The position numbers and the translations under genes are program-made. This document shows, one piece after another, positions 2,491-18,528 of a stretch of 64,000 nt of DNA; position 1 is the first letter of the stretch; every line of letters starts with the position of its first letter. Under the pieces are notes generated by a model that saw nothing but the letters and a program-made list of their open reading frames with translations, was not told where the DNA came from and ran no database searches. The stretch is taken from NCBI GenBank assembly GCA_947473125.1, contig CANJDH010000005.1, positions 1 to 64,000 of the forward strand. Reading direction: 5' to 3'. This DNA comes from Burkholderiales bacterium. Lineage in GTDB: Bacteria > Pseudomonadota > Gammaproteobacteria > Burkholderiales > JAEUOS01.

Positions 2491-4650
2491 ATGCACAAGA
2501 ATCTGCTGGTCGAGCTGTTCGTTGAAGAGCTGCCGCCGAAATCCCTGAAGAAGCTGGGCGAATCGTTTGCCGCGTCGTTCAGTGCCTCCCTGAAAGCGCA
2601 GGGCCTCGCCGAGGCGTCGGCGGTTACGTCGTTCGCGACGCCGCGCCGCCTGGCGGTGCACATGACCCAGGTAACTGGCAAGGCCGCCGACAAGGCGGTC
2701 TCGCAAAAGCTGATGCCCGCCAGCGTCGGCCTCGACGCATCGGGCCAGGCGACCCCCGCCTTGCTCAAAAAGCTCGCCAGCCTCGGCGCCGGGCCGGAAG
2801 CAGTGCCGTCTCTCTCGCGCAAACCCGACGGCAAAGCCGAAGCCCTGTTTTTCGACAGCATGGTGCCGGGCGCTTCGCTCGCTGAAGGCGTGCAAAAAGC
2901 ACTGATCGAGACAATCGCCAAACTGCCGATCGCCAAGGTGATGGGCTATCAAAAGGCCGACGGCTGGAGCACCGTGCATTTCGTGCGGCCGGCACACGGG
3001 CTGATTGCGCTGCATGGCGCCGACATCGTGCCGGTCACGGCACTCGGCCTGACGGCAGGGCGCATCACCCACGGACATCGCTTCGAAGCCGCAGCCGATT
3101 CGATCAGCATCAACGACGCCGACAGCTACGCCGCCCAGCTTGAAGCCGAAGGCGCCGTGATTGCAAGCTTTGCCGCACGCCGCGCGGAAATTACCAAACA
3201 AATTGCCGCCGCCGCGCAGGTAGCGGGAACCGCGGCCGGCGCCAACCTCAAGCCGATCGACGACGACGCATTGCTCGATGAAGTGACCGCCCTGGTCGAG
3301 CGCCCCAACGTGCTGATCGGCACCTTCGAGAGCGAATACCTCGACGTGCCGCAGGAATGCCTGATCCTCACCATGAAGGCCAACCAGAAGTATTTCCCTC
3401 TGCTCGAAAGCGCAGGAAAACTCACCAACAAATTCCTGATCGTCAGCAACATCCGCCCGGCCGATGCGTCAAAAGTGGTCGGCGGCAACGAGCGCGTGGT
3501 GCGCCCGCGCCTGGCCGACGCGAAATTCTTTTTTGACCAGGACCGCAAGAAGACGCTCGAATCGCGCGTGCCCGGGCTGGCCCGCGTGGTGTACCACAAC
3601 AAGCTGGGCACCCAGGGCGAACGCGCCGAGCGGGTGCGTGCCATCGGCCACGCCGTTGTCAACCTGTTGCGCATGGCGGTGGTGCCGTATACGGCGCTCG
3701 CCAAGGACGAGCTCGACGTGCTTGACAGCAAGGTGCAGGAAGCTGCGCGCCTTGCCAAGACCGACCTGCTCACCGACATGGTCGGCGAATTCCCGGAGCT
3801 GCAGGGCATCATGGGCGCCTACTACGCGCGCCACGAAGGCCTGCGCGACGGTGTCGCGATTGCGATCGAAGACCACTACAAGCCGCGCTTCGCCGGCGAC
3901 GCGCTGCCGCGCAACCACACCGGCACCGTGGTGGCGCTCGCCGACAAGCTCGAAACCCTGGCCGGCCTGTTCGGCATCGGCCAGATCCCGAGCGGCGACA
4001 AGGACCCGTTCGCACTGCGCCGCCATGCGCTCGGCGTGATCCGCATCCTGATCGAAAAAAACCTGGCCATCGGCCTGGGAGCCTTGGTGGATGCGGCTTT
4101 TCGGGCTTTCCCCGCCGACAGCGTGGATCTCAACACCGCACCCAAGCTGATCGAATTCATGTTCGACCGCCTCGCCAACCAACTGCGCGAGCAAGGGTTT
4201 TCGGCGCAGGAAGTCGATGCCGTGCTGGCCTTGCGGCCCGACCAGTTACGCGACATCCCGAAACGCCTTGCGGCGGTACGTGCCTTTGCGGCCCTGCCCG
4301 AATCGGCTGCCCTCGCGGCCGCCAACAAGCGCGTCGGCAACATCCTGAAAAAAGTCGAGGGCGCAGTCCAAGCCACTGTCGACCCCGCGCTGTTGGTCGA
4401 AGCCGAAGAGAAGGCGCTCGGCAATGCACTCGCCGCCGTCAAGCCCGACGCCGATGCCGCGTTCGAGCGCGGCGATTACACCGCATCGCTCAAGGCGCTC
4501 GCCGCCCTCCGGGAGCCGGTGGACGCGTTTTTCGAGAAGGTGATGGTCAATGCCGAAGACGCAAAGCTGCGCGCCAACCGCCTCGGCCTGCTTGCGACGC
4601 TGCACGCGGCGATGAACCGCGTGGCCGACCTGTCGCGCCTGGCGGCGTGA
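2491..4650 (+). CDS. glyS: Glycine-tRNA ligase beta subunit
   Basis: GlyS is the tRNA-binding beta subunit that pairs with GlyQ. At 719 residues it is slightly longer than many family members (about 690). It begins MHKNLLVELFVEELPPKSLK, the typical start, and carries the conserved HD-like segment FPELQGIMGAYYARHEG and the signature DKLETLAGLFGIGQIPSGDK with DPFALRR next to it. The C-terminal region (from about residue 600) is the anticodon-binding part. The ATG follows glyQ by 2 bases, and its last 4 bases overlap the waaF start. A stretch at about 4078-4108 resembles the dispersed TTGGTGGGAG repeat, but it may be chance. Confidence 0.98.
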   Translation: MHKNLLVELFVEELPPKSLKKLGESFAASFSASLKAQGLAEASAVTSFATPRRLAVHMTQVTGKAADKAVSQKLMPASVGLDASGQATPALLKKLASLGAGPEAVPSLSRKPDGKAEALFFDSMVPGASLAEGVQKALIETIAKLPIAKVMGYQKADGWSTVHFVRPAHGLIALHGADIVPVTALGLTAGRITHGHRFEAAADSISINDADSYAAQLEAEGAVIASFAARRAEITKQIAAAAQVAGTAAGANLKPIDDDALLDEVTALVERPNVLIGTFESEYLDVPQECLILTMKANQKYFPLLESAGKLTNKFLIVSNIRPADASKVVGGNERVVRPRLADAKFFFDQDRKKTLESRVPGLARVVYHNKLGTQGERAERVRAIGHAVVNLLRMAVVPYTALAKDELDVLDSKVQEAARLAKTDLLTDMVGEFPELQGIMGAYYARHEGLRDGVAIAIEDHYKPRFAGDALPRNHTGTVVALADKLETLAGLFGIGQIPSGDKDPFALRRHALGVIRILIEKNLAIGLGALVDAAFRAFPADSVDLNTAPKLIEFMFDRLANQLREQGFSAQEVDAVLALRPDQLRDIPKRLAAVRAFAALPESAALAAANKRVGNILKKVEGAVQATVDPALLVEAEEKALGNALAAVKPDADAAFERGDYTASLKALAALREPVDAFFEKVMVNAEDAKLRANRLGLLATLHAAMNRVADLSRLAA

Positions 4651-5705
4651 ACCGGCGGCCCGGCCGCATCCTGGTCGTAGCGCCCAACTGGCTGGGCGAT
4701 GCGATCATGGCGCAACCGCTGCTGACGCTCCTCAAGGGCAAGACCGGCGCCCTGATCGATGTGGTTGCGGTGCCGGCGGTGGCACCGGTGTTCCGGCGCA
4801 TGCTCGAGGTGAGCCGCGTGATCGAAGCCGATTTTCGCCACGGCGCCCTCGACATGAAGGCGCGCTGGAAGTTGGGCCGCTCGCTGCGCCTGGACCAGGC
4901 CGGCCAGCCGCAGTATGCACAAAGCTACGTGCTGCCCAATTCATGGAAGTCGGCATTGGTGCCATTTTTCGCCGACGTGGCAGTGCGCGTCGGCTATGCC
5001 GGCGAGGCACGCGTCGGCTTGATCGACGTGCGGCACCCGAACCCGAAAAAAAATACCGCGCGCGAACCGATGGCGCTGTTCTACGCGCGTCTCGCCGACC
5101 TGCCGGGCAAACCCTTGCCGAAACTGGCCGAACCGTTCCTGATGACCGACCCATTGCGCGTGATCGCCGCCAAGGTCAACCTCGGCTTGCACCCGGCACA
5201 GAATCTGGTAGCCCTGTGCCCGGGCGCCGAGTACGGCCCGGCGAAACGCTGGCCCGCCGAGTATTTCGCCGAGGTGGCAGGCAAGCTCAAGGCGCGCGGT
5301 TTTACGCCAATCGTGCTCGGCGCGCAAGGTGACGTGCCGGCCGGCCTCACCATCGAACAACTCTCCGCGGGCGCCGCGATCAACCTGGCAGGAAAGACCA
5401 GCCTCGACGACGCGATCAACCTGATTGCCGGCAGCCGCGCAGTGATCACCAACGATTCGGGCCTGATGCACGTGGCCGCCGCGCTCGGCAAACCACAACT
5501 CGCGCTGTTCGGTTCGTCCAGCCCGGAACACACGCCGCCGCTGTCGGGCCTGGCGCGCGTGATTACGCTCAAGGTCGAGTGCAGTCCGTGCTTCGCGCGC
5601 GAATGCCCGCTCGGACATTTCAAGTGCATGCGCGAAATGAAGCCTGCGCGGGTGCTGGATGAATTTGACGGATTGGGTGATTTGATAACATCGGCGACGC
5701 CATGA
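4647..5705 (+). CDS. waaF: ADP-heptose:LPS heptosyltransferase II
   Basis: This GT-B fold glycosyltransferase of family 9 adds the second heptose to the lipopolysaccharide inner core on the cytoplasmic face of the inner membrane. The 352 residues fit WaaF. The N-terminal motif RILVVAPNWLGDAIMAQPLL binds the acceptor side. The nucleotide-sugar half contains ALCPGAEYGPAKRWP and TNDSGLMHVAAALGKPQLAL. The start is GTG at 4647, overlapping the glyS stop as GTGA, which indicates translational coupling. Its stop overlaps the next ATG as ATGA. Linkage of LPS core genes with glyQS occurs in betaproteobacteria. Confidence 0.94.
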   Translation: MNRRPGRILVVAPNWLGDAIMAQPLLTLLKGKTGALIDVVAVPAVAPVFRRMLEVSRVIEADFRHGALDMKARWKLGRSLRLDQAGQPQYAQSYVLPNSWKSALVPFFADVAVRVGYAGEARVGLIDVRHPNPKKNTAREPMALFYARLADLPGKPLPKLAEPFLMTDPLRVIAAKVNLGLHPAQNLVALCPGAEYGPAKRWPAEYFAEVAGKLKARGFTPIVLGAQGDVPAGLTIEQLSAGAAINLAGKTSLDDAINLIAGSRAVITNDSGLMHVAAALGKPQLALFGSSSPEHTPPLSGLARVITLKVECSPCFARECPLGHFKCMREMKPARVLDEFDGLGDLITSATP

Positions 5706-6145
5706 GCACAAAAATATTTACGACCCCACAAGATTGCGAAGCGGCGTTTTACGACGCACTGGAAAAATCCGACCTGGAAGCCATGATGGCGGTCTGGGCC
5801 GAAGACGAAGACGTGCTGTGCATCCACCCCGGCGGCCCGCGGGTCAGCGGCCATGCCGCGATCCGCGAGATCTGGCGCCAGATGTTCGCCGGCGGCGCGC
5901 GCCTCGCGGTCTACGTCGGCCAGGTGATGGCGACCCAGGCGATGATGATGGCGGCGCACTCGGTGCACGAATTCATTTCGATGAAGGGCGAGCCGCGCCC
6001 GGCGCACCCGGTGGTCGCCACCAACGTCTACATCCGCTCCGGCAACGGCTGGCGCATGATCGTGCACCACGCTTCAGCCACCCCGCAAAAAGGTGCGCAG
6101 CCAGCCGAAAGCACGCCGGCGCAGCGCCCCAAGACCCTGCATTGA
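5702..6145 (+). CDS. SnoaL/NTF2-like (ketosteroid-isomerase fold) protein
   Basis: This 147-residue protein has the NTF2-like alpha+beta cone fold pattern of the SgcJ/DUF4440-type group. The N-terminal helix (FYDALEKSDLEAMMAVWAED) is followed by CIHPGGPRVSGHAAIREIW, then beta strands ending in RSGNGWRMIVHHASATP. Members include small-molecule isomerases and stress-related binding proteins; no specific function can be assigned. The ATG overlaps the waaF stop, and its own stop overlaps the TTG start of the next gene, so it is embedded in the waaF operon. The last about 20 residues, after the conserved HHASA strand, look disordered. Confidence 0.8.
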   Translation: MSTKIFTTPQDCEAAFYDALEKSDLEAMMAVWAEDEDVLCIHPGGPRVSGHAAIREIWRQMFAGGARLAVYVGQVMATQAMMMAAHSVHEFISMKGEPRPAHPVVATNVYIRSGNGWRMIVHHASATPQKGAQPAESTPAQRPKTLH

Positions 6146-7122
6146 AACCTTCCGGCTACTCCGCTGCATGGTGGTTGCCGGGAGGACATGCGCAAACCAT
6201 CCTTCCTGCGCTGGCGGGCCGGCGCGCGTCGCTGGCTTATACGCGTGAGCGCTGGCCCAGCGTTGATGCCGCAGGAAGGCCGGATGGCGACTTCATCGAT
6301 GTTGATTTTTTGCCGTGGATTGACGGCGCGCCACTGGTGGTGCTGTTCCACGGCCTTGAGGGCAGCTCGCAAAGCCACTATGCAACCGCGATGATGCGCG
6401 CGCTGGCGGAGCGCGGCTGGAACGGCTGCGTGCCGCATTTTCGCGGCTGCTCGGGCGAGCTCAACCTGCTGCCGCGCGCCTACCACTCGGGCGACTCGGC
6501 CGAGATCGACTGGATCATTTATCGCCTGATCGAAACCAAAAAGCCGCCGCGCCTGTATGCGGCCGGGGTCTCGCTGGGCGGCAATGCCCTGGCGAAGTGG
6601 GCAGGCGAGCAGGGTGATGCGGCGAAACCTTTGGTGGGAGCCATTGCCAGCGTGTCGTCGCCGCTCGACCTGGCCGCCGCAGGGGTTGCATTGGGGCAGG
6701 GATTCAACATGGTCTACACGCGCATGTTCCTCGACACGCTCAAAAAGAAGAGCGCGGTGAAGCTGCGTCAGCATCCTGGCCTGTTCGACGGCAGTGCGGT
6801 ACTGGGTGCACGCGACCTGTACGAATTCGACAACCTGGTCACCGCGCCGCTGCACGGCTTTCGCGATACCGACGACTACTACGCGCGCGCCTCGGCCAAG
6901 CCCTGGCTGCGCCACATTGCCGTGCCGGCGCTGATCCTCAATGCGCGCAACGACCCGTTCATGCCGGCCGGTGCGCTACCCAACATACACGACGTGTCGC
7001 CCAGCGTTACGCTTGAACAACCGCAGCATGGCGGCCATGTCGGATTTGCACGCGGAATCCTGCCCCCGGGTAACATCGACTGGCTGCCCCACCGATTGCT
7101 GGCTTTCTTTTCGCAACACTGA
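6142..7122 (+). CDS. YheT-like alpha/beta hydrolase
   Basis: This is an alpha/beta hydrolase of the YheT/AB-hydrolase-4 family, whose physiological substrate is mostly unknown. The start is TTG at 6142: it overlaps the previous stop as TTGA and gives the family-typical beginning YSAAWWLPGGHAQTILPAL. The nucleophile elbow is GVSLGGNALAKW (Ser about residue 144), the oxyanion region is VLFHGLEGSSQS, and the likely catalytic His is in QPQHGGHVGF near the C-terminus. Length is 326 residues against about 330-340 for the family. Residues about 161-169 (KPLVGAIA) are encoded by a copy of the dispersed TTGGTGGGAG repeat. The upstream GC-rich frame that extends this ORF is non-coding. Confidence 0.88.
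   Translation: MKPSGYSAAWWLPGGHAQTILPALAGRRASLAYTRERWPSVDAAGRPDGDFIDVDFLPWIDGAPLVVLFHGLEGSSQSHYATAMMRALAERGWNGCVPHFRGCSGELNLLPRAYHSGDSAEIDWIIYRLIETKKPPRLYAAGVSLGGNALAKWAGEQGDAAKPLVGAIASVSSPLDLAAAGVALGQGFNMVYTRMFLDTLKKKSAVKLRQHPGLFDGSAVLGARDLYEFDNLVTAPLHGFRDTDDYYARASAKPWLRHIAVPALILNARNDPFMPAGALPNIHDVSPSVTLEQPQHGGHVGFARGILPPGNIDWLPHRLLAFFSQH
6622..6647 (+). repeat. Dispersed TTGGTGGGAG repeat, copy inside the yheT-like gene
   Basis: The sequence GAAACCTTTGGTGGGAGC matches the repeat consensus, but the right arm (CCATTGCC) has lost its complement to the left arm. It is read in the frame that encodes KPLVGA. It could be a decayed insertion or coincidence with the hydrolase sequence. Confidence 0.45.
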
Positions 7123-7133
7123 AAAATTTTCCC

Positions 7134-8528
7134 ATGCCCGATTCGACCCGCCCCCCCCAACTGCCCGCGGAAATCTTCAAGGCCTATGACATTCGCGGCA
7201 TCGTCGGCAAGACCCTGACGCCGGCGATTGTCGAATTGATCGGCCGCGCCATCGGCAGTCTGGCACGCGAACGCGGCGTGACCGAGATCGTGGTCGGCCG
7301 CGACGGCCGCCTTTCCGGCCCGGCGCTGATTGCAGCGCTCGCCACCGGCTTGCGCGCCGCCGGCATCAATGTGATCGACGTCGGCATGGTTGCCACGCCG
7401 CTCACCTACTTCGCCGCCTACGAACTCGACGCCGGATCGTGCGTCATGGTCACCGGCAGCCACAACCCGCCCGACTACAACGGTCTCAAGATGGTGGTGG
7501 CCGGCGAGACGCTGTACGGCGACACCATCACTGCGCTGCGCACACGCATCGAGGTGAGCAACTTCGCTTCGGGCAGCGGCACCCTGCGGTCCCACGAGAT
7601 TCGCGAGGCCTACTTCGCGCGCGTAACAGGTGACGTCAAGCTGGCACGGCCGATGAAGATCGCGATCGATTGCGGCAACGGCGTGGCCGGCGCCTTTGCG
7701 CCCGAGCTGTTCCGGCGCCTCGGTTGTACCGTAACCGAGCTGTTCTGCGACGTCGACGGCAATTTCCCGAACCACCACCCGGATCCGTCGGTGCCGAAGA
7801 ACCTGGCCGACCTGATCGCCTGCGTCAAAAGCGGTGATGCCGAACTCGGCCTGGCCTTCGACGGCGACGGCGACCGCCTCGGCGTGGTCACCAAGGACGG
7901 CCACATCATCTACCCGGACCGGCAGTTGATGCTGTATGCGGCCGACGTGCTCTCGCGCAACCCCGGCGCCACCATCATTTACGACGTCAAGTGCACGCGC
8001 AACCTGGGGCCCTGGATCAGCGCGCACGGCGGCACGCCGCTGCTCTGGAAAACCGGCCACTCCTTGGTCAAGGCGAAGATGCGCGAAACCGGCGCCCAAC
8101 TGGGCGGCGAGATGAGCGGCCACACTTTTTTCAAGGAGCGCTGGTACGGTTTTGACGACGCGCTCTATGTCGGCGCGCGCCTGCTCGAAATCGTGTCCCG
8201 GTCGGCCAATCCGAGCGCGGTGCTCGACGCCCTGCCCGATTCGATCACCACGCCCGAATTGCAGTTGGCGCTCAACGAAGGCGAGCACTTCGCGCTGATC
8301 GCCAAGTTGCAGCGCGACGCAAAATTTCCCAACGCCGAACGCGTGATCGACCTGGACGGCCTGCGCGTCGAATACAAGGACGGCTTCGGCCTGGCGCGCG
8401 CATCCAACACCACGCCGGTGGTGGTGCTACGTTTCGAGGGTGAAACGCAAGAGGCTATGCTGCGTATCCAGGCCGATTTTCGCGCGGCGCTGCTTTCGGC
8501 CAAGCCCGACGCCGTGCTGCCGTTTTAA
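7134..8528 (+). CDS. Phosphomannomutase/phosphoglucomutase
   Basis: This 464-residue alpha-D-phosphohexomutase interconverts mannose or glucose 1- and 6-phosphates, supplying sugar nucleotides for LPS and polysaccharide. The active-site phosphoserine loop is VTGSHNPPDYNG (Ser 109), the metal-binding loop is DGDGDRLG (residues 243-250), the sugar-specificity loop is LGGEMSGHTFF, and the C-terminal phosphate-binding region is LARASNTTPVVVLRFE. It resembles AlgC/ManB-type bifunctional enzymes of proteobacteria. The ATG at 7134 lies 11 bases after the hydrolase stop; no strong ribosome-binding site is seen. Its place downstream of waaF suits a cell-envelope sugar operon. Confidence 0.93.
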   Translation: MPDSTRPPQLPAEIFKAYDIRGIVGKTLTPAIVELIGRAIGSLARERGVTEIVVGRDGRLSGPALIAALATGLRAAGINVIDVGMVATPLTYFAAYELDAGSCVMVTGSHNPPDYNGLKMVVAGETLYGDTITALRTRIEVSNFASGSGTLRSHEIREAYFARVTGDVKLARPMKIAIDCGNGVAGAFAPELFRRLGCTVTELFCDVDGNFPNHHPDPSVPKNLADLIACVKSGDAELGLAFDGDGDRLGVVTKDGHIIYPDRQLMLYAADVLSRNPGATIIYDVKCTRNLGPWISAHGGTPLLWKTGHSLVKAKMRETGAQLGGEMSGHTFFKERWYGFDDALYVGARLLEIVSRSANPSAVLDALPDSITTPELQLALNEGEHFALIAKLQRDAKFPNAERVIDLDGLRVEYKDGFGLARASNTTPVVVLRFEGETQEAMLRIQADFRAALLSAKPDAVLPF

Positions 8529-8564
8529 ACCCCGCCGTCTGAATTACATGCGCAGCGCGCCACC

Positions 8565-9182
8565 ATGAGCTTTGACACCTCCGTCATCGCCGCAATGGCG
8601 AAATGGCCGGATGTGCCGGATGTCTACAACTGGCTGCTGCTCGACGCGCGCGGACGCTACCGCGTGCGTGCCCGCGACTATGAAAAGAGCGGCCGCTTCG
8701 ATACGATCGGCAATTCCGCAGTGGTCGAATTCATCGGGCGCAATACCGCCTGCGACGCGAGCGGGCGCTGGTATTTCCAGAACGGCCCGCAGCGGGTATT
8801 CTTCAAACTCGAATGCACGCCGTTTGTGGCGCGCCTGCAGCCTCACGGCATGCCGCTGCTGCATACCGGGGCCGCAGTCACGCGCGTCGACGCGGTGTGG
8901 ATCGACGAGCATGCGGCGGCGATTCTGGAGACCGATGCCGGACCGGCGCTGGTCGATGACCGCGACAATGCCGCCTTTCTCGCAGGCCTAAAACCTATGG
9001 TGGGAGCGGTTCTTGAAGATTCACTGCTAGAAGAATGGCTGCAGGAGCCGGTCTCCGGGAAGCTGGTTTGGGAAGTTTGCGCTACCCGCATACCGGTCGG
9101 GTCGATGCTGCGCGCCACGCTGCCAGCACGCTTTGGCTTCGTGGCTGCCCCGCAAGCGCCGGATGGCGCCGCAGACTGCTGA
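8565..9182 (+). CDS. Conserved uncharacterised protein (about 200 residues)
   Basis: No function is recognised. The N-terminal half is well ordered and opens with a pattern I recall from a conserved proteobacterial family of unknown function (VYNWLLLDARGRYRVR, then VEFIGRNTACDASGRWYFQNG). It has no signal peptide or membrane segment. From about residue 142 (LKPMVGAVLEDS) the coding sequence coincides with a copy of the dispersed TTGGTGGGAG repeat, and the remaining 55 residues may be a repeat-altered tail. It is convergent with the CHAT gene, with 43 bases between stops. The ATG at 8565 was chosen because it precedes the conserved region. Confidence 0.72.
   Translation: MSFDTSVIAAMAKWPDVPDVYNWLLLDARGRYRVRARDYEKSGRFDTIGNSAVVEFIGRNTACDASGRWYFQNGPQRVFFKLECTPFVARLQPHGMPLLHTGAAVTRVDAVWIDEHAAAILETDAGPALVDDRDNAAFLAGLKPMVGAVLEDSLLEEWLQEPVSGKLVWEVCATRIPVGSMLRATLPARFGFVAAPQAPDGAADC
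8987..9018 (+). repeat. Dispersed TTGGTGGGAG repeat, copy inside an uncharacterised gene
   Basis: CCTAAAACCTATGGTGGGAG followed by CGGTTCTTGAAG matches the repeat, with one change in the core. The gene reads through it in the LKPxVGA frame, the same frame as in the YheT-like gene. Confidence 0.55.
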
Positions 9183-9225
9183 ACCGTATTCCAGCTGGAG
9201 CGCCGGACACTGGCGCCGCGCGGTT

Positions 9226-12200
9226 TCAGGATCCGTCGCCCACCAGCGAAAACGGCGCCCAGAACAACGGGTGGGCATACGAGTAAGCGGCCTTGCCGGC
9301 GCCGTCCCTGGCTTCCCCGGCATCGATCAGATCCAGCATTGTTGAACGCAAGGCATCCGCCTTCGACAAGGCAGGCTGCGCAGCCTGGCGCCGGAAGATG
9401 CCGGTGGTGATTTGTTTGGCAGAGACGGTTTCCACCGGCCAGCTGGATGCGAGCAAGGCACGCGTACCGGCATAGAAGAACGCACGACCCAGACCCGACA
9501 GCGCCTCGGCGCCCTCCGCCGAACCGCTGGCCGTATTGCACGCCGACAGCACGACCCAGTCTGCATCGAGCTTGAGGTTGAGGATTTCCTCAACCGTGAG
9601 CAGGCCATCGCCTTCGACACCGGCCACATCCGGAGCCGTTAGCGCCAGTGCCGGCTGGTCGAGGCCGTTGAGTTCACCCGGCACCAGGCCATGGGTGGCA
9701 AACAGGATCACCCGCTTGCTGCGCCAGTCGCGCGCCTTGACTTCCTTTTCGTTCGCGCCGGTTTGCAGCAGCACATCCGACGCCGCGCCAAAGATCGCCG
9801 CGATTTCGCGCACTTCATCGTTGGTATCGGGCAGGCGCGCCAGGCGTGCCAGTTCGGCGCTGTCGACCTGGTCTAGGCGGCCGGCGCTACGCAGCGCCAC
9901 CGCAACGCCGCCGCGCACGGTGACGCTGGCCGCAGCCGTCGCCGCAGTCTGCGCCGTCATCTGTGCACGACTAAAGATCGGGTCGCCGATGCCGGCAAAA
10001 CTCAATGTCTTGTCGGTGCGCGCCGGCAGTGCGCGCAGGGTCACCAGCGCGTTTACCGACGGCACCTGGGTGATCGCATGGCGGCGCACCAGCCAGGGCA
10101 CGTTGCGGTACTCAACATAGGCCGGCATCGCGTCGAGGCGCACCACCGCCGGCGCCGTCGGCAGGAGCGCGAAGGGCAGCGCGGCGAGCGCGCCATTAGC
10201 CGAGACAATGAGCTGCTTGCTGTCACCGAAGGCGGCCGCCACCGGCGCCAGCACGATCCGATAAATCTCGTGCGCGTCGTCAAGCGCAAACGGCGGCACG
10301 CCGGGCAGACCGTGCGAAAACGGGTCAACGGTGCGGCGCACGCGCGCGGTCAGCGCTTCGATGGCCTTGGCGCCTACCGGTGCCGCATGAAACGCCGGGG
10401 CGCCGGCCTTGGGCACGGCCCAGACAAAGGTGCGCGTTTCGCCGCTCAGCACAGCGAGGAGGGCTTCGCCGGGGCGCAGCACGCGCTGGGCATCGGCAAT
10501 GGTTGGCGGCCGGGGCGCGATCAGATTGGCATAAGCCGGAAAGCGCCGTTCGATGTCGGCTGCCAGGGTGGCTTGCTCCTTTTCAATGACGCCTATGCGT
10601 ACGCGCATGTCGCCGATGACCTTGGTCAGTTGCTTCTCGATGGGCGCCGCGAGCAGACTGCCGAGGGTGCGATGCAGGGTCGACAGTTCCTCGCCGAAGT
10701 CCTGCTCGCGTCTTACCACTTCGGCCAACTGCGGGTCGGCCGAGGCGCGCGCCGCCGATGACGCCAGAGCCTTTTGCACGCTGCCGGCGCGCAGCAAATC
10801 GGCAGCGGTGAAGCCTTCCTGGGCGGCGGGCTCCTTGAAGAGGCTCGCGAACTCCGGCCCCTGCATGTCGGCCAGCAGCCCCAGATAGCTCTCGAGGATG
10901 TGGCCGAAGATACGCTTGCCAAGCGACTCGCTGCCGCCGTCGTTGCTGCGCAGGCGCGCATCGGCGATGGTGCGCACCGCATCCCGATACAGGCTGAGTG
11001 CCGCGGCCTTGGCACCGCCGGCCTGCAGGGCCATCGCCTTGGCGCCTTTGGCCTGCCCGGTCAAGACATGTGCCGCGCCGAAGCGCGTTTCGAAGCGCTG
11101 CACCAGCGCGTCGGCCACCGGCAGGGCGCGCGCGCCCTGCCCGGATTGCGCCAGCGCGATCACGTAGGTAGCACCAGCGCCAGGGTTGCGCTGTGCCTCG
11201 CCGGTCCAGCGTTCGACCTGCGCCGTCGCTTCGGCATAGGCACCTCTTACATACAGTGCTTGTGCATACTCGCCGCGCGCACGCGCGACCAGGCCGCTGC
11301 CATCTTCGGCCCCCACCCGTTCGTAAATGCGCACCGCCTCGCCAAGCAGTGCCTCGGCATCGGTGAAGCGGCCTTGGCGCGAATAGACCGCACCCAGCGC
11401 TCCGAGGGCACCGGCCACCTGAGGCGAGTCGCGCCCGACGCGCGCAATGACGCGCTGCACCTGGGCGCGCAACAGGATTTCGGCATCGACGTGGCGGCGC
11501 TGCTGCATCAGCACCGCCGCCCAGCCCAGTTCGCAGACGTCACGCGAGGCCTGCGAGCCATCCGGCGTGGGTGCGTCTGTACCGAGTGCCGCAAAGCGCT
11601 GGTTCGCCAGTTGCGCATCGTCAATGCTCGCCTCGACGGCGCGCTTGAATGCCGCATCAGCCTCGACCAGTTTGCCGCGCACGAATAGGTGGCTGCCGCG
11701 CAGGCATTCGAGCCCGCTGCGCCAGGCATGCCGATACCAGCCCGCTGCGCGCGAATTGCTCATCGACAATTGGTACGCGTGGTCGGCTTGCCGCTGCGCC
11801 TCGTCGGCCCCGCTGACGTCACCCATGGCGGCACGGTCGATGGCGACGCGCCCATAGGCCCCGATCAGGAATCCGGCCAGCGGCCGCAGGCCGATCACCT
11901 CGTTGACCAATTCCATCGACTGTGTCAAATCGCCATACAGCCGTTCACGCACCGCCAAATCGAACAGGATCCGTGCGGCAGCGTCGGTGCCGCGCGCCAG
12001 CATGGCGTTGCGGCGTTTGATCTCGAGTTCCTTGCCGGTCTGGCCCAATTCTTCGGCGGCCTGTCCCTGGCGGCGCAGGAACACGATTTGCTCGCGCAGC
12101 GCCGCGCTCGCCGGGAACGGCTCGGCCAGCATCGCCTTGAGCTCGGATATGCGTTCCGGGCGCGGCTTGGCCGCCTCGATCTGGGCGACCAGATCCTTGA

Positions 12201-12303
12201 TCGATTTTGGCGGCGCCGTTTCCGCCGACGCAGCCAGTGCGGCGCAGAGAAGCGCTGCCCCCGCGACTGCGCGTATCACACCTGCCCTCAACAACCAGTT
12301 CAT
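9226..12303 (-). CDS. Exported CHAT-domain (caspase-like) protein with TPR region
   Basis: The protein has 1025 residues. The N-terminus has a Sec-type signal (hydrophobic VIRAVAGAALLCAALAASA, cleavage near ASAETA), so the product is probably periplasmic or outer-membrane associated. Residues about 40-480 are Ala-rich helical repeats of TPR type (for example VAGALGALGAVYSRQGRFTDAEALL). The CHAT domain fills the last about 400 residues and keeps the caspase-clan dyad: His about 871 in ILFATHGLVPGE and Cys about 922 in VVLSACNTASGSAEG, then LGRAFFYAGTRALLASSWPV. CHAT proteases cleave specific partner proteins. The start at 12303 was chosen over one 8 codons upstream because it overlaps the FecR-like stop as ATGA. 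Confidence 0.88.
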   Translation of the reverse strand: MNWLLRAGVIRAVAGAALLCAALAASAETAPPKSIKDLVAQIEAAKPRPERISELKAMLAEPFPASAALREQIVFLRRQGQAAEELGQTGKELEIKRRNAMLARGTDAAARILFDLAVRERLYGDLTQSMELVNEVIGLRPLAGFLIGAYGRVAIDRAAMGDVSGADEAQRQADHAYQLSMSNSRAAGWYRHAWRSGLECLRGSHLFVRGKLVEADAAFKRAVEASIDDAQLANQRFAALGTDAPTPDGSQASRDVCELGWAAVLMQQRRHVDAEILLRAQVQRVIARVGRDSPQVAGALGALGAVYSRQGRFTDAEALLGEAVRIYERVGAEDGSGLVARARGEYAQALYVRGAYAEATAQVERWTGEAQRNPGAGATYVIALAQSGQGARALPVADALVQRFETRFGAAHVLTGQAKGAKAMALQAGGAKAAALSLYRDAVRTIADARLRSNDGGSESLGKRIFGHILESYLGLLADMQGPEFASLFKEPAAQEGFTAADLLRAGSVQKALASSAARASADPQLAEVVRREQDFGEELSTLHRTLGSLLAAPIEKQLTKVIGDMRVRIGVIEKEQATLAADIERRFPAYANLIAPRPPTIADAQRVLRPGEALLAVLSGETRTFVWAVPKAGAPAFHAAPVGAKAIEALTARVRRTVDPFSHGLPGVPPFALDDAHEIYRIVLAPVAAAFGDSKQLIVSANGALAALPFALLPTAPAVVRLDAMPAYVEYRNVPWLVRRHAITQVPSVNALVTLRALPARTDKTLSFAGIGDPIFSRAQMTAQTAATAAASVTVRGGVAVALRSAGRLDQVDSAELARLARLPDTNDEVREIAAIFGAASDVLLQTGANEKEVKARDWRSKRVILFATHGLVPGELNGLDQPALALTAPDVAGVEGDGLLTVEEILNLKLDADWVVLSACNTASGSAEGAEALSGLGRAFFYAGTRALLASSWPVETVSAKQITTGIFRRQAAQPALSKADALRSTMLDLIDAGEARDGAGKAAYSYAHPLFWAPFSLVGDGS

Positions 12304-12956
12304 TTCGGCCGGCGGTTTTCCACCCATGCATCAAGGTCCTTGACTATATCGCTGTTGGGCTGCTTGGCCTGCATCACCCGGACGAGCTGCTTCATTTCAT
12401 CGTACATCGAGTAGTTCTGCACCACGGTGTAAAGGTAGATCTCGGGCATGATGTCGTCGGCCGGGGCCGCCGATTTCATCGATTCATAGGTCTTGCGCGC
12501 TTCGCGCACTTCGGCGGCCTGGTCGGCCGTCAGGGTGGAAGGGGTAATGCCGCGCACCATCACGCTCCCGGCGCGACCCAGCTTGGCGATTTGCATCATC
12601 TCCGGAGTTTGCGCGAGCCTTTGCGGTACGCCGCCGGGCAGCTGCGAAACTTCCGGCTGGCCGGATTGGCCACGGCTTTCAGAGGGGCCCACGGTAAAGG
12701 CCGCCGGCCCCTTCCAGGACTCCTGGCGCCCATTGGAAAAATAGACCACGCGCACGCTGGCACCGGCCGGCACCCGCACCACGTCGCTGTCGCGCAGTTT
12801 CATGTAGGCAGTGGCACGCGCCGTCGAGCCGCCTGCCGGCTGATACTGCACCTCACCCGACAGCTGGTTGATCATGCCGGCATCGCCGGCGCTTTGTGCG
12901 AACGCGGTGGATATGGCCAACACACACGAGGCGACCCAGATCAACAGGAGTTTCAT
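12300..12956 (-). CDS. FecR-domain secreted protein
   Basis: This 218-residue exported protein starts at ATG 12956, which follows GGGAGAA by 4 bases and opens a clean signal peptide (MKLLLIWVASCVLAISTAFA, then Q). The domain after it (SGEVQYQ, DSDVVRVPAGASVRVVYFSNG, WKGPAAFTVG) is FecR-like, as in periplasmic proteins that carry signals or bind ligands. The C-terminal 90 residues are helical (YLYTVVQNYSMYDEMKQLVR). The stop overlaps the CHAT start by 4 bases, so the two are co-translated. FecR plus CHAT-TPR pairs look like a functional unit, perhaps regulator or substrate plus protease; this is inference. Confidence 0.85.
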   Translation of the reverse strand: MKLLLIWVASCVLAISTAFAQSAGDAGMINQLSGEVQYQPAGGSTARATAYMKLRDSDVVRVPAGASVRVVYFSNGRQESWKGPAAFTVGPSESRGQSGQPEVSQLPGGVPQRLAQTPEMMQIAKLGRAGSVMVRGITPSTLTADQAAEVREARKTYESMKSAAPADDIMPEIYLYTVVQNYSMYDEMKQLVRVMQAKQPNSDIVKDLDAWVENRRPK

Positions 12957-13219
12957 GACGTTCTCCCAAACTTTCCGCAACAAGGCGCAATTATGCTCCG
13001 GGAATAACGGCAGCGTGTGACGAACGGATGGCGCGCTCGCGAAAATTCGGGTTGGCGCACGCGCCGGCGCAAGGCCTGAAACGGGCGCTGTGCGCTACCT
13101 GTTGAGGCAGGCCCCGCTACTTTGGTCGGTTACCGCATTCGTCGCGCCAAACCGTGTAAATTCTGTTTCATCGCAACGCCGTGCCGGCGCGGGCGGCAAA
13201 ATCAGAAAGTGGAGGAATC

Positions 13220-13642
13220 ATGGCTGTGACCTATCAAAAACCGTCGGGCGCCTTTATCGGCGCCTCCTGGGTGGCGCTGCTGGTGGGCGCAGGCACGTTC
13301 ATCGTGGCGCTGTGGAACGCCTCGATGCCCGAATATGAAAAGGGCTATTACTTCACCGTGTTGATGTACGGCCTGTTTTCCTGCGTATCCCTGCAAAAGG
13401 CCGTGCGTGACCGGCTCGAAGGCATTCCCGTGACTGGTATTTATTACGGCCTCGCCTGGGTATCGGTGGGGCTCACGATCCTGCTGTTGCTGGTCGGCTT
13501 GTGGAATGCCAAGATGGCGTCTGCCGACAAAGGCCTCTATGCCATTGCCTTCCTGATGAGTTTGTTCGCGGCAATCGCGGTTCAAAAGAACACCCGCGAC
13601 ACCAAGTTGATCGAAGACCCCGACGGTCCGGGTACTGAATAG
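13220..13642 (+). CDS. YiaA/YiaB-type inner membrane protein
   Basis: This 140-residue membrane protein contains two copies of the YiaAB two-helix unit: FIGASWVALLVGAGTFIVALWNA with YYFTVLMYGLFSCVSLQKAVRD, and LAWVSVGLTILLLLVGLWNA with YAIAFLMSLFAAIAVQKNTRD. Four transmembrane helices are predicted, and each unit ends in QK(A/N)xRD. The family function is unknown. The ATG at 13220 is preceded by GTGGAGGA. The 263-base region upstream, shared with the divergent FecR-like gene, holds no recognisable gene or strong promoter motif. Confidence 0.88.
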   Translation: MAVTYQKPSGAFIGASWVALLVGAGTFIVALWNASMPEYEKGYYFTVLMYGLFSCVSLQKAVRDRLEGIPVTGIYYGLAWVSVGLTILLLLVGLWNAKMASADKGLYAIAFLMSLFAAIAVQKNTRDTKLIEDPDGPGTE

Positions 13643-13668
13643 CACCAGGCCTGCGGAACCAATGCTGA

Positions 13669-15036
13669 TCAGGCGGTGTTAACAAGTTCGCGCGCGAGTT
13701 CGTTGTGCCGCTCTACCAGAAGCGGCAGATCAACCGACGTCAGGTGCCCTTCCCTCACCACCACACGGCCGTTGACGATGGTGTAGTCGGCGCGGCGCGG
13801 TGCACAAAACAGCAGCGCCGCCACCGGATCATGCAGGGCGCCGGCAAAGGTGACGTCGTCGAGACGGTACAACGCAAGGTCGGCAGCCATGCCGGGCGCG
13901 ATCATGCCGACGTCGTCGCGCCCCAGTACGCGCGCCCCACCGCGGGTGGCGAGCTCCAGCGCGGCGCGCGCACCCATGGCACCGGGCCCGTGCCCGACGC
14001 GTGCCAACAACATCGCCTGGCGCGCTTCTCCCAGCAGGTCGCTGCCGTCGTTCGACGCCGAACCATCCACGCCCAGCCCGACCGGCACGCCGGCACGACG
14101 CATGGCGCCGATCGGCGCGATGCCGCTGGCAAGGCGCATGTTCGAGCAGGGACAGTGCGCGACGCCGGTTCCGGTGGCGCCGAAGCGCGCAATGCCCGGC
14201 GCATCGAGCTTGACGCAGTGCGCGTGCCAGACGTCGTCGCCAAGCCAGCCGCAGTCTTCGGCGTATTCGGCCGGCGTCATGCCAAACTTTTCCCTGGAGT
14301 AGGCAACATCGTTGTCGTTTTCCGCCAGATGCGTATGCAAGCGCACGCCGTGGTCGCGGCCGTAGCTGCGCGCCAGCGCCGCTGACTCGCGCATCAGATC
14401 GCGGCTGACCGAAAACGGCGAGCACGGCGCAGCGGCAATGCGCGTCATCGCATGGCGCGCCGGGTCGTGCCAGCGTTCAATCAGGCGCTGCGTGTCCTTG
14501 AGGATCGCGGCCTCCTTCTCGACCAGCCGGTCCGGCGGCAGGCCCCCCATGCTCTCACCGACACTCATGGCGCCGCGCGTGGCGTGAAAGCGCATGCCGA
14601 TGCGGGTAGCAGCCTGAATCGAGTGGTCCAGCGTGCAGCCGTTCGGGAACAGGTAGAGGTGATCGCTCGAGGTCGTGCAGCCGGACAGCAGCAATTCGGC
14701 CATGGCGACCTGGGTCGAGACTTCGAGCATTTCGGGCGTAAGGCCGGACCAGATCGGATACAGGACTTTCAGCCAGGCGAACAGCTCTGCGTCCTGCGCG
14801 CCGGGCACAGCGCGCGTGAGCGTCTGGAACATGTGGTGGTGGGTGTTGATCAGGCCGGGGATCACTGCGTGCCGGCGCGCATCGATCACTTCATCGGCCA
14901 GTGCTGGCAATTGGCCTGCCGGACCGATGGCCTCGATCAGATTGCCGCGCACCAGCACGCTGGCATCCGCCAGTTCCGTGCGCACGTCGTCCATGGTCGC
15001 AACGACGCGTGCGTTCTTGATCAATAGTGTGTTCAT
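13669..15036 (-). CDS. 8-oxoguanine deaminase
   Basis: This 455-residue amidohydrolase of the TRZ/ATZ group matches 8-oxoguanine deaminases (PA0142 type), which convert 8-oxoguanine to urate. Metal ligands are seen in INTHHHMFQTLTRAVP, HTHLAENDNDV, VWHAHCVKLD and VGLGVDGSASNDGSD. Phe/Met-rich NTHHHMFQTLTR and the CPCSNMRLASGIAPI segment are typical of this group rather than of cytosine deaminases. The ATG overlaps the guanine deaminase stop by 4 bases. Position at the end of the purine operon supports a role in clearing oxidised guanine to the same end product as xanthine dehydrogenase. Confidence 0.88.
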   Translation of the reverse strand: MNTLLIKNARVVATMDDVRTELADASVLVRGNLIEAIGPAGQLPALADEVIDARRHAVIPGLINTHHHMFQTLTRAVPGAQDAELFAWLKVLYPIWSGLTPEMLEVSTQVAMAELLLSGCTTSSDHLYLFPNGCTLDHSIQAATRIGMRFHATRGAMSVGESMGGLPPDRLVEKEAAILKDTQRLIERWHDPARHAMTRIAAAPCSPFSVSRDLMRESAALARSYGRDHGVRLHTHLAENDNDVAYSREKFGMTPAEYAEDCGWLGDDVWHAHCVKLDAPGIARFGATGTGVAHCPCSNMRLASGIAPIGAMRRAGVPVGLGVDGSASNDGSDLLGEARQAMLLARVGHGPGAMGARAALELATRGGARVLGRDDVGMIAPGMAADLALYRLDDVTFAGALHDPVAALLFCAPRRADYTIVNGRVVVREGHLTSVDLPLLVERHNELARELVNTA

Positions 15037-16331
15037 GGCGGATTGAGAAGTTGGCCCAAAGTATAGGTCGCTGCAACGGTGCGCTCATCGCCGAGGTGCA
15101 TCAACGCAAAAAGCCGGTCAATGGCATCGTCGCGCAAATGGTTGCGGCGACTCAGCGCAGGTGTCGCTGCAGGGCTAAGGACCACCAGGTCTGCTTCCTT
15201 GCGAGGCATAAAGTTGCCAATGGTTTCCTCCAGACCAAGGCTGCGTGCACCGCCTAAGGTAGCCAGATACAAGGCTTCCATCGGATGCAAGGCCGTGCCC
15301 AGAAGCTGCTGCACCTTGTAACCCTCCGCCATCGTTGTCAGCAATGAGTAGCTCGTGCCGCCGCCAACGTCAGTGGCAAGGCCCGTGCGCATCCCGGCCT
15401 CACGCGCCTGCTGATAATTGAACAGGCCGCTGCCTAGAAACAAGTTGGAAGTCGGGCAGAACGCCGCAGCGGCTCCGGTACTCGCCATGCGCGCACGGTC
15501 GGCGTCGTCCAGCCAGATGCAATGCCCGTAGATCGCACGCTCACGCAGCAGCTCATGGCGATCATAGACATCCAGATAGCTGCGTGCGCCGGGAAACAGC
15601 TCGTGCGCCCATGCCACTTCACCCTGGTTTTCCGCCACATGGCTCTGGATCCACGCGTCAGGATGCTCGCGCGCCAGGCGGGTGCAGGCAGCGAGCTGCT
15701 CGGGCGACGAGGTCGGGGCAAATCGCGGAGTAATCGCGTAACCGAGCCGATCGCGTCCGTGCCAGCGCTCGATCAGCGCCTTGCTGTCGCGGTAGCCTGA
15801 TTCGGCGGTATCGCGCAGGTCAGCGGGGCAGTTGCGGTCCATCAACACCTTGCCGGCGATCATGCGCAGGTTTCGACCTTGCGCCGCTTCGAAAAATGCA
15901 TCCACCGACTGCGGGTGCACCGTGCAGAACACCGCCGCCGTGGTGGTGCCGTTTTCAAGCAGCCGGTCGAGGAAGAACTCGGCGACGCCGTCGGCATGAG
16001 CACGCTCGGCAAATTTGCGCTCTTCAGGAAAGGTATAGCGCTCCAGCCAGTCGAGCAGTTGCGTGCCGTGGCTGGCGATCACGTCCACTTGCGGGTAGTG
16101 CACATGGCAATCGATGAAGCCCGGCACGATCAGATGGCCACGCCAGTCGTCGATGGCGACGTCCGGCCCGAGTTGCGGCAACAGTGTCGCAGCGGGCTGC
16201 AGCGCTTCGATGCGCCCGTCGCGCACCAGCAGGAGGCCGTCGTGCACCGCTTCACATGCAGTCGCATCCCCGCCGGGGCCGGGGTCGGCAAGGCAGTGCA
16301 GGAAATCGCCGCGAATCGCTTTGGTCGTCAT
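15033..16331 (-). CDS. guaD: Guanine deaminase
   Basis: GuaD hydrolyses guanine to xanthine and ammonia with a zinc centre. The 432-residue protein shows GFIDCHVHYPQVDVIASHG, the signature LLDWLERYTFPEE, metal ligands in SHVAENQGEV and IYGHCIWLDD, and the late Asp in LATDVGGGTSYSLL. All match the guanine deaminase family. The product feeds xanthine dehydrogenase encoded upstream in the same block. Its stop overlaps the start of 8-oxoguanine deaminase. A strong hairpin terminator lies just upstream, between this gene and the BMP lipoprotein gene, so it may have its own promoter or depend on read-through. Confidence 0.93.
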   Translation of the reverse strand: MTTKAIRGDFLHCLADPGPGGDATACEAVHDGLLLVRDGRIEALQPAATLLPQLGPDVAIDDWRGHLIVPGFIDCHVHYPQVDVIASHGTQLLDWLERYTFPEERKFAERAHADGVAEFFLDRLLENGTTTAAVFCTVHPQSVDAFFEAAQGRNLRMIAGKVLMDRNCPADLRDTAESGYRDSKALIERWHGRDRLGYAITPRFAPTSSPEQLAACTRLAREHPDAWIQSHVAENQGEVAWAHELFPGARSYLDVYDRHELLRERAIYGHCIWLDDADRARMASTGAAAAFCPTSNLFLGSGLFNYQQAREAGMRTGLATDVGGGTSYSLLTTMAEGYKVQQLLGTALHPMEALYLATLGGARSLGLEETIGNFMPRKEADLVVLSPAATPALSRRNHLRDDAIDRLFALMHLGDERTVAATYTLGQLLNPP

Positions 16332-16375
16332 GCTGTGGTGCTCATGTGCTGCTGCCCATGCGATGTCCGAAAAAA

Positions 16376-16406
16376 AGCCCGTTCGCCGTTGACGGGCGAA
16401 CGGGCT
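16376..16406 (-). terminator. Rho-independent terminator after the BMP-type ABC operon
   Basis: Read on the minus strand this is a 12-bp perfect stem (AGCCCGTTCGCC arms) with a 7-base loop, followed by a run of T (the plus-strand A-run at 16371-16376). It sits directly after the stop of the substrate-binding lipoprotein gene and before guaD. Confidence 0.85.
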
Positions 16407-16420
16407 GCTGGCCTCACCTA

Positions 16421-17587
16421 TTACTTGTTGCTCGGCACCTTGCCTTCAACGCCCTTGACGTAAAACATGATGCCGGAGATGAACTTGTCATCGCCCTTGG
16501 CATCCTTGGCCAGCACTTCCTTGCCGTCATTGCCCATCAGCGGCCCGCTCCAGACATTGAATTTGCCTTCCTTGATTTCGGCTTTCTTGTCTTCGGCCAT
16601 CTTCTTGACGTCGGCGGGCACCATGTCGCCCAGCGCCACCACGTCAATCGCGCCTTCCTTCATGCCCCACCAGTTGGTCTCGCCCTTCCAGGTGCCATCG
16701 AGCGCATCCTTGATCGCCTTCTTGTAATACGGCGCCCAATTGATGATGGCCGAGCCGAGATGGGCCTTGGGGCCGTAGCTGGTCATGTTGCTGTCCCAGC
16801 CGAAGGCCAACTTGCCCATTTTCTCAGCGGTCTGCAATACGGCCGGCGAATCGGTGTTTTGCAGCAGCACGTCGGCGCCGCCGTTGATCAGCGCGGTCGC
16901 GGCTTCGGCTTCCTTGCCCGGGTCAAACCATTTGTTGATCCAGACCACCTTGGTCTTGACCTTCGGGTTGACGCTTTGCGCACCGAGGGTGAAGGCGTTG
17001 ATGTTGCGCACCACCTCGGGAATCGGGATCGAGGCGACGAAGCCCAAGGTATTGGTCTTGGTCATCTTGCCGGCAATCATGCCTGCGACGTAAGCGCCTT
17101 CGTAGGCACGCACGTCGTAGACGCGCATGTTGTCGGCACTCTTGTAGCCAGTGGCATGCTCGAACTTCACGTCCTTGAATTCGGGCGCAACCTTGAGCAT
17201 CGGCTCCATGTAACCAAAGGTTGTGCCGAAGATCAGCTTGTTGCCTTGCGAGGCCATGTCGCGGATCACGCGCTCGGCATCGGCGCTTTCCGGCACATTT
17301 TCGACGAACGAGGTCTTGATTTTGTCGCCGAACTCCTTCTCGGCTTCCTTGCGCCCCAGGTCGTGCGCGTAGGTCCAGCCGCCATCGCCGACCGGGCCGA
17401 CGTAGGCGAACGCGATCTTGAGCGGCTCGGGTTTTGGTGCGGCCTTGGGCGCCTCGGCAGCCTTGGGGGCGTCAGCGGGCTTGGCCGCCGGTTTGGGTTC
17501 TTCCTTGCCGCAACCGGCCAGGCCCGCAGTCAGTCCGATGGCCGCCAGCATGGCGGTGAGCAACAACGATCTACGCAGGTTCAACAT
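16421..17587 (-). CDS. BMP-family purine/nucleoside-binding lipoprotein
   Basis: This 388-residue lipoprotein has a signal peptide ending in the lipobox LTAGLAGC, followed by an Ala/Pro/Lys linker and a Bmp (PnrA-like) ligand-binding domain. Visible family motifs are KIAFAYVGPVGDGGWTYAHD, TSFVENVPESADAERVIRD and INGGADVLLQNTDSPAVLQ. BMP proteins bind nucleosides or purines and deliver them to a RbsC-like permease pair. The ATG at 17587 is preceded by GAGGAG. Downstream is a strong terminator. With guaD and xdhABC beside it, the ligand is probably a purine base or nucleoside; this is inference from context. Confidence 0.9.
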   Translation of the reverse strand: MLNLRRSLLLTAMLAAIGLTAGLAGCGKEEPKPAAKPADAPKAAEAPKAAPKPEPLKIAFAYVGPVGDGGWTYAHDLGRKEAEKEFGDKIKTSFVENVPESADAERVIRDMASQGNKLIFGTTFGYMEPMLKVAPEFKDVKFEHATGYKSADNMRVYDVRAYEGAYVAGMIAGKMTKTNTLGFVASIPIPEVVRNINAFTLGAQSVNPKVKTKVVWINKWFDPGKEAEAATALINGGADVLLQNTDSPAVLQTAEKMGKLAFGWDSNMTSYGPKAHLGSAIINWAPYYKKAIKDALDGTWKGETNWWGMKEGAIDVVALGDMVPADVKKMAEDKKAEIKEGKFNVWSGPLMGNDGKEVLAKDAKGDDKFISGIMFYVKGVEGKVPSNK

Positions 17588-17612
17588 GACAACTCCTCTG
17601 TAATGGAACGAT

Positions 17613-18527: not shown

Positions 18528-18528
18528 C

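Follow-up and report, generated by a model that had tools for sequence, protein, structure and literature searches.

The gene pair on contig CANJDH010000005.1 raised the question of whether a caspase-like protein and a small partner, both predicted to be exported, act as a system of their own or belong to a larger one. In the window, by which we mean the whole 64,000-nucleotide stretch that was analyzed, the gene for the small protein (P0002) lay upstream of the gene for a TPR-CHAT protein (P0001), both on the minus strand, and the 4-base overlap noted in the original prediction was confirmed (Table 1). The neighbors of the pair appeared metabolic by inspection. Among the window genes inspected, no gene for a CHASE2 and class III cyclase stood beside the pair; a complete set of CHAT, CHASE2 cyclase, and small-protein genes was present elsewhere in this genome, on contig C50, and a search of the genome for a peptidase C14 gene found none. 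Our main reading, to which we assign a probability of about 0.5, is that the window pair represents a satellite copy, devoid of the cyclase, of a conserved envelope signaling module made up of an exported TPR-CHAT protein, a CHASE2 cyclase, and the small protein, in which the protease would regulate the cyclase by acting on the small protein or together with it.

Table 1. Features of the gene pair on contig CANJDH010000005.1
Feature	Position	Strand	Details
TPR-CHAT protein P0001, 1025 aa, predicted exported	9226..12303	-	signal peptide ~1-26, helical/TPR ~35-595, CHAT 676-1023
Small partner P0002, 218 aa, predicted exported	12300..12956	-	signal peptide ~1-20, beta-sandwich ~23-109, linker ~122-142, TPR-like helical ~144-215
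ATGA overlap, 4 bases: small-gene stop / CHAT-gene start	12300..12303	-	
His871 codon, ATHG motif	9691..9693	-	computed from start 12303
Cys922 codon, LSACNTA motif	9538..9540	-	computed from start 12303

Sec signal peptides were predicted at both N-termini, as had been claimed for the two proteins, by a crude self-written rule (n-region charge, h-region, and AxA-like site) that is not a SignalP equivalent; it placed the cut sites near residue 20 of P0002, between AFA and QS, and near residue 26 of P0001. The same rule was passed by 53 of 58 small-protein ORFs and 27 of 36 CHAT ORFs, compared with 190 of 797 other ORFs, counts that include both copies of the duplicate contigs L027/L028/L047 and L020/L021/L022. 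The picture of a periplasmic or surface CHAT protease with a FecR-like partner was retained for the exported TPR-CHAT protein and its exported small partner, but not for the nature of that partner, which was not FecR by any sequence test applied.

Membership of the small protein in the FecR family was dropped after four negative tests. P0002 had no FecR match in Pfam at E ≤ 1, none of 45 small-protein family members matched FecR (PF04773) at E ≤ 0.5, a search of the source genome with that Pfam family found five places, none inside the window, and profile-profile alignment of the small-protein family with 29 FecR domains from seven genomes (hhalign) gave a probability of 3.1%. The list of structures matching P0002 was filled by its TPR-like half, so the lack of FecR structures there was uninformative. 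The family alignment (A4) comprised P0002 and 44 small-protein ORFs from the 40 loci described below, leaving out the ORFs of L049, L053, L063, and the first L041 copy, which had broken or doubtful frames. The small protein is composed of a beta domain, possibly retention-module-like, and a TPR-like helical domain. For the beta domain, PDB 5ix9, which we take to be a LapA-type retention module, was the top hit of both Foldseek (E 0.011) and VIA (Z 10.2 over 76 residues at rmsd 3.1), and one of the 45 family members weakly matched NF033682 (NCBIfam; E 0.0011). A likeness to LapA-type modules (5ix9, NF033682) would lie in the fold of this domain; a difference is that no adhesin is attached to the small protein. 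When solved structures were searched with the small-protein profile, all matches were short and weak (E of at least 0.17) and were taken as chance. The two domains are joined by a conserved linker, IAKLGRAGSVMVRG.

A scan of named genomes with the small-protein profile yielded 40 loci. A CHASE2 adenylate cyclase gene adjoined the small gene in 34 of them, and the usual gene order was CHAT, cyclase, small protein. In 20 of the 25 loci with a TPR-CHAT gene, this gene stood immediately ahead of the cyclase gene on the same strand, often with overlaps of 1 or 4 bases, and CHAT and the small protein occurred together again in the distant loci L102 and L107. At some loci, a peptidase C14 caspase gene took the place of CHAT, and C14 genes were seen in the similarly built loci L023, L025, L026, and L064. 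The small gene was solitary in four loci, and several others held the cyclase and the small gene with no CHAT seen, which indicated that CHAT is dispensable for the core. Judged by length, L027, L028, and L047 were the same contigs as L020, L021, and L022, which went into the search profiles, so that three of the 40 loci were not independent of those profiles. The association of CHAT with the small protein, proposed from this one locus, reached far beyond the source genome (25 of 40 loci), but the conserved unit included the CHASE2 adenylate cyclase and was not a self-contained pair.

Controls were drawn from outside the module. With search profiles built from module members, a CHAT or C14 gene was found near none of 20 CHASE2 control regions, which were hand-picked at intervals among the listed rows of a phylum sample, and a match to the cyclase profile occurred within 1.5 kb in one of 27 CHAT loci from a class sample. 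All 34 cyclases tested, a set (A7) of 33 of the 34 cyclase loci plus the C50 copy, with L049 omitted for a broken frame, matched both CHASE2 and Guanylate_cyc. The metal Asp residues, Lys533, Asn618, and Arg622 were kept in all 34 and Asp615 in 33, a pattern that we take to be of the adenylate type. Membership of CHAT, the CHASE2 cyclase, and the small protein in one module was well supported.

The position of the window copy within this module was less regular. The nearest relative of P0001, and the sole close one found, was G004 (52% identity), near which the small-protein gene was not found; the window pair in the strict sense was not conserved because this relative stands alone, and neither gene of the pair need rely on the other. 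A first scan of the named genomes with P0001 alone as the query had given 112 pattern matches and zero relatives. Absence of the pair beyond this genome, which the original prediction had named as evidence against itself, was seen for G004, and the association was nonetheless widespread elsewhere. In the clade of the window CHAT, according to a quick version of the CHAT tree, the small gene was adjacent or one gene away in two of three members; in one of them (L051), the cyclase and the small gene were divergently adjacent. The row most identical to P0002 was the C50 copy (54%), although P0002 clustered with a solitary copy on contig C11 of its own genome, apart from the C50 operon copy.

The linker motif G[GS][VI]xVR was kept in P0002. 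Among small proteins encoded at CHAT loci it was present in 28 of 29, compared with two of nine at cyclase loci with no CHAT seen and one of four solitary ones, counts from which L049, L053, L063, and the first L041 copy were excluded. L058 had a CHAT gene and no motif, and L036 was solitary with the motif. This relation of linker to CHAT is confounded by kinship, as most motif-less rows belonged to distant lineages and a single clade accounted for all three losses among solitary copies. Retention of the motif in P0002, the lack of a cyclase gene in the window, and the 4-base overlap, which suggests coupled translation, are consistent with a pair that has departed from cyclase signaling and works as a stand-alone exported protease with its own regulator, in line with the original proposal of a protease whose partner may be its substrate or inhibitor. 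We consider this unlikely: no small gene stands beside the nearest CHAT relative, and the cyclase accompanies the small protein more often (34 of 40 loci) than CHAT does (25 of 40), which points to the cyclase as its first partner.

The TPR-CHAT protein itself matched the Pfam CHAT domain (PF12770) with E 2.4e-49 and 168.8 bits against a curated cut-off of 24, in addition to TPR repeats, and all 23 CHAT proteins submitted reached that cut-off. The intact His and Cys that had been placed at about residues 871 and 922 were found at those positions and were invariant in all 23 proteins aligned (A5: P0001 and 22 of the 25 CHAT loci, with L031, L039, and L049 omitted). A matching H/C pattern was present in 33 of 41 CHAT ORFs; among those without it were ORFs that are split, truncated, or distant. 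The predicted model of P0001 (mean pLDDT 75.0) had the TPR-CHAT fold, matching that of Craspase (7y84) with Z 27.1 over 603 residues at rmsd 6.8. Among PDB entries, the CHAT profile matched DdvA of Myxococcus best (E 0.0047; the other two at 0.2 or above), and the model aligned with DdvA over 556 residues at rmsd 4.2. It is doubtful, but conceivable, that CHAT is a non-proteolytic switch that binds a ligand or partner and uses the protease fold as a sensor, as may hold in DdvA, described in the accessible part of one report as an anti-sigma factor whose signal is not known (PMC4374960). However, DdvA has a Cys at the aligned position, and selection on the His/Cys dyad argues for catalysis. The assertion of a cytosolic location for the described bacterial CHAT proteins was incomplete, as DdvA is a transmembrane anti-sigma factor and a membrane segment is predicted in HetF according to the accessible text (PMC8406250). 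DdvA (PDB 8rot and 8rw5), so far as the titles of its structures describe it, shares with the module a TPR-CHAT fold in a transmembrane-signaling protein and differs in being a single fused protein of the membrane that acts as an anti-sigma factor, with no cyclase.

A defense or cell-death effector resembling Craspase, the reading to which the fold match with 7y84 would lend itself, is very improbable, given that the proteins are exported by the crude rule and that a cyclase sensor is the usual partner. PADLOC assigned no family to P0001 or P0002; in 15 of 23 CHAT proteins its sole match was a generic TPR model, and a defense system was rejected. A mobile element was likewise rejected, as P0002 had no match at E 1e-5 in plasmid and phage collections. 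Chance neighborhood of unrelated exported proteins with an accidental overlap, for which the solitary relative of P0001 and the clustering of P0002 with another solitary copy might speak, is just as improbable against the co-occurrence of CHAT and small protein in the named loci, in L102 and L107, and within the window CHAT clade.

The module resembles several known systems. CHASE2-FecR operons are already known; in the literature searched, no text was found that joined CHAT to CHASE2 or to FecR. In Campylobacterota, clusters with a CHASE2 cyclase, a phosphodiesterase, a FecR-domain outer membrane protein, and a TPR protein were read by their authors as one pathway (PMC9239204). They share with our module a CHASE2 cyclase that is accompanied by a TPR protein and a small exported one. 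In contrast, no phosphodiesterase was identified in the CHAT module, its small protein fails the FecR tests, and the words CHAT and caspase do not occur in the accessible portion of that paper. The CyaD1/Clr locus of S. meliloti, with SMc02177 (FecR domain) and the Clr target SMb20495 (TPR), shares the CHASE2 cyclase, exported partner genes, and cAMP output, as far as the available text describes it (PMC5498481). The Burkholderia BiofilmReg operon, which encodes a LysM-FecR protein and a CHASE2 histidine kinase, likewise has an exported partner encoded beside a CHASE2 sensor; it differs in its histidine kinase output and LysM, and CHAT is not mentioned in the accessible part of the source (PMC5192318). 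Craspase Csx29 shares TPR, CHAT, and the His/Cys dyad, and is a protease that releases a signaling brake, Csx30 on a sigma factor; it differs in its CRISPR effector partner and, according to the sections available, has neither a cyclase nor export (PMC10028731).

Returning to the module reading, we propose a periplasmic location for both the TPR-CHAT protein and its small partner. The CHAT protease may be activated when the TPR part binds a partner or an envelope signal, and would then cut or grip the small protein at its flexible, conserved interdomain linker; the altered small protein would change the CHASE2 sensor and with it cAMP synthesis in the cytoplasm. The window pair might act in trans on the C50 cyclase or be freed to work alone. 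In S. meliloti, CyaD1 lacking CHASE2 produced cAMP constitutively, according to the available text (PMC5498481). More tentatively, the periplasmic TPR-CHAT protein could be the input of a transmembrane second-messenger pathway, in which the Arg/Gly linker is cut and the cut form relieves a CHASE2 brake on an adenylate cyclase; CHAT and peptidase C14, two families of caspase fold, would then have come to this role independently. The LapG-LapA-LapD system, which also combines a cysteine protease of the periplasm with a retention module and a second messenger, offers a parallel, although the CHAT module would run from the outside to the inside instead.

What CHASE2 domains recognize is not known, as stated in the accessible part of the BiofilmReg study (PMC5192318); the module supplies a candidate input for these sensors and names a candidate substrate and a candidate cut site. 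The finding also bears on the proteases themselves. Bacterial caspase-like proteases have been discussed mostly as death or defense effectors. An exported one encoded beside a CHASE2 adenylate cyclase makes a role in envelope signaling plausible for such proteases, and suggests that signaling across the cell membrane can involve an enzyme of caspase-like type located outside the cytoplasm.

The two window genes (see table) are joined by an ATGA overlap, the 218-aa gene lying upstream of the 1025-aa gene. The larger protein carried TPR repeats and a Pfam CHAT domain at residues 676-1023 (E 2.4e-49), with His871 within an ATHG motif and Cys922 within an LSACNTA motif, both invariant across 23 aligned CHAT proteins. 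The N-termini of both window proteins passed a crude signal-peptide rule, which was passed by 53/58 small-protein ORFs, 27/36 CHAT ORFs and 190/797 other ORFs. The original prediction was therefore right on the 4-base overlap, the intact His and Cys and, by this rule, the signal peptides. The neighboring amidohydrolase-like, lipoprotein and ABC-transporter-like genes looked, by inspection, like an unremarkable cluster for uptake and deamination.

Positions of the features discussed, on the window or on the named locus
Sequence	Position	Strand	Feature
Window	12956..12300	minus	small-protein gene, 218 aa (P0002)
Window	12303..9226	minus	TPR-CHAT gene, 1025 aa (P0001)
Window	13669-21211	minus	two amidohydrolase-like genes, then lipoprotein and ABC-transporter-like genes
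L019 (contig C11, own genome)	10391-11041		solitary third small-protein copy
L023 (G004:C27)	5834-13904		CHASE2 cyclase clustered with two ORFs resembling the small protein and two resembling peptidase C14
L039	2842-6102		CHAT, split frame
L049	438-2433		cyclase, split frame
L050	8857-9594		solitary small gene
L052	8935-9597		solitary small gene
L055	3545-4222		solitary small gene
L106 (G019:C31)	3236-13692		three CHAT-domain ORFs

The FecR domain first assigned to the partner was rejected by the tests made, as Pfam FecR matched 0/45 family members at E<=0.5 and profile-profile comparison of the small protein with 29 FecR domains gave only 3%. Pfam FecR was found at five places in the own genome, none inside the window. 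The small protein gave a good predicted structure (mean pLDDT 90.6, pTM 0.82), comprising a beta domain, closest over 76 residues to the cell-surface anchoring domain 5ix9 (Z 10.2, rmsd 3.1), and a TPR-like helical half, nearest over 82 residues to Fis1 (Z 8.5, rmsd 3.2). The NCBIfam retention_LapA model touched 1/45 members (E 0.0011).

Searching named genomes with a profile of the small protein yielded 40 loci, mostly from uncultured Betaproteobacteria and some Deltaproteobacteria. When partners were called by profiles derived from members of the module, a CHASE2-cyclase gene adjoined the small gene in 34/40 loci and a CHAT gene was present in 25/40, immediately preceding the cyclase in 20 of those 25. 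Among the others, opposite-strand genes separated CHAT from cyclase in L034 and L046, L051 was divergent, and CHAT came last in L058 and L063. Pfam confirmed both CHASE2 and Guanylate_cyc in 34/34 cyclases submitted, and CHAT in 23/23 proteins. The cyclases kept residues of the adenylate type. Six loci were without cyclase: in L032 and L065 the contig breaks off immediately upstream, and the small gene is solitary in L036, L050, L052 and L055; the last three occupy one conserved site directly after a universal-stress-like gene and have lost the linker motif described below. The small gene was doubled in tandem after the cyclase in L029, L030, L037, L038, L039, L041, L043 and L048, and the split frames in L039 and L049 reflect decay or assembly error. 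In more distant loci (L023, L025, L026, L064), a peptidase C14 caspase gene stood in place of CHAT; further distant CHAT-cyclase sets were L100, L101, L102 and L107. A single 13.7-kb contig of a same-order genome (L106) held three CHAT-domain ORFs.

Among 20 control CHASE2 loci chosen out of a phylum sample (17-19 kb stretches), a CHAT or C14 match was found in 0/20 and a weak small-protein match in 1/20. Near 27 CHAT loci of a class sample (flank up to 1.5 kb), a cyclase-profile match occurred in 1/27 and a small-protein match in 0/27. As control loci were almost without co-occurrence, CHASE2 and CHAT are not generally associated, and the gene set is a specific feature of this group.

The own genome contained four CHAT matches, four CHASE2 matches, no C14 match and three small-protein genes, on C5 (window), C50 and C11. 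The full CHAT-cyclase-small set lay on C50; the window pair was in reversed order (small, then CHAT) and without cyclase, and the C11 copy had no CHAT or cyclase match within 14 kb. In a quick tree the window CHAT protein clustered with L051, where cyclase and small gene are divergently oriented, and with G004:C74 from another genome (52% identity across 1000 residues), near which no small gene was found; the window small protein clustered with the solitary C11 copy (97/84). For these reasons the strict pair is not conserved, while the association is real and conserved, the original prediction having covered just part of it.

In the small protein, the stretch linking the two folded domains was modeled with lower confidence (pLDDT 66 at residues 131-140), yet it was conserved as IAKLGR(S/A)GGVxVRG. 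Its core, G[GS][VI]xVR, occurred in 28/29 small proteins from CHAT loci, 2/9 from cyclase loci in which no CHAT was seen and 1/4 solitary ones, counts confounded by kinship, as the losses among solitary copies form one clade. L058 has CHAT but no motif, and L036 is solitary yet has it. The window protein kept the core, as did, by inspection, the C11 copy, in which the neighboring residues are changed. The pattern fits a candidate recognition or cleavage site.

The CHAT model (mean pLDDT 75.0, N-terminal part weak) matched separase 5fby over 320 residues (Z 27.2, rmsd 3.2), the Craspase TPR-CHAT protease 7y84 over 603 residues (Z 27.1, rmsd 6.8) and DdvA 8rw5 over 556 residues (Z 21.2, rmsd 4.2). 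Csx29 cuts Csx30, releasing a brake on a sigma factor (PMC10028731). CHASE2 can itself act as a brake, because S. meliloti CyaD1 without CHASE2 produced cAMP constitutively (PMC5498481); the same paper also places a CHASE2 sensor by a FecR protein. Other reports describe that neighborhood in Burkholderia (PMC5192318) and, with a TPR protein and a phosphodiesterase, in Campylobacterota (PMC9239204), and a metacaspase-CHASE2 fusion in Trichodesmium (PMC3501461). Within the open-access library searched, outside which lie most subscription papers and all preprints, no paper paired “CHAT domain” with “FecR” or “CHASE2”, or “FecR domain” with “caspase”.

Our data show export (by the crude rule), an intact dyad, a membrane sensor cyclase with its catalytic residues kept, and common loci. 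A proteolytic step in the module is a good hypothesis: CHAT would cut or grip the small protein and so tune CHASE2 and cAMP. The CHAT-cyclase-small protein module represents CHASE2 envelope signaling in a new form.
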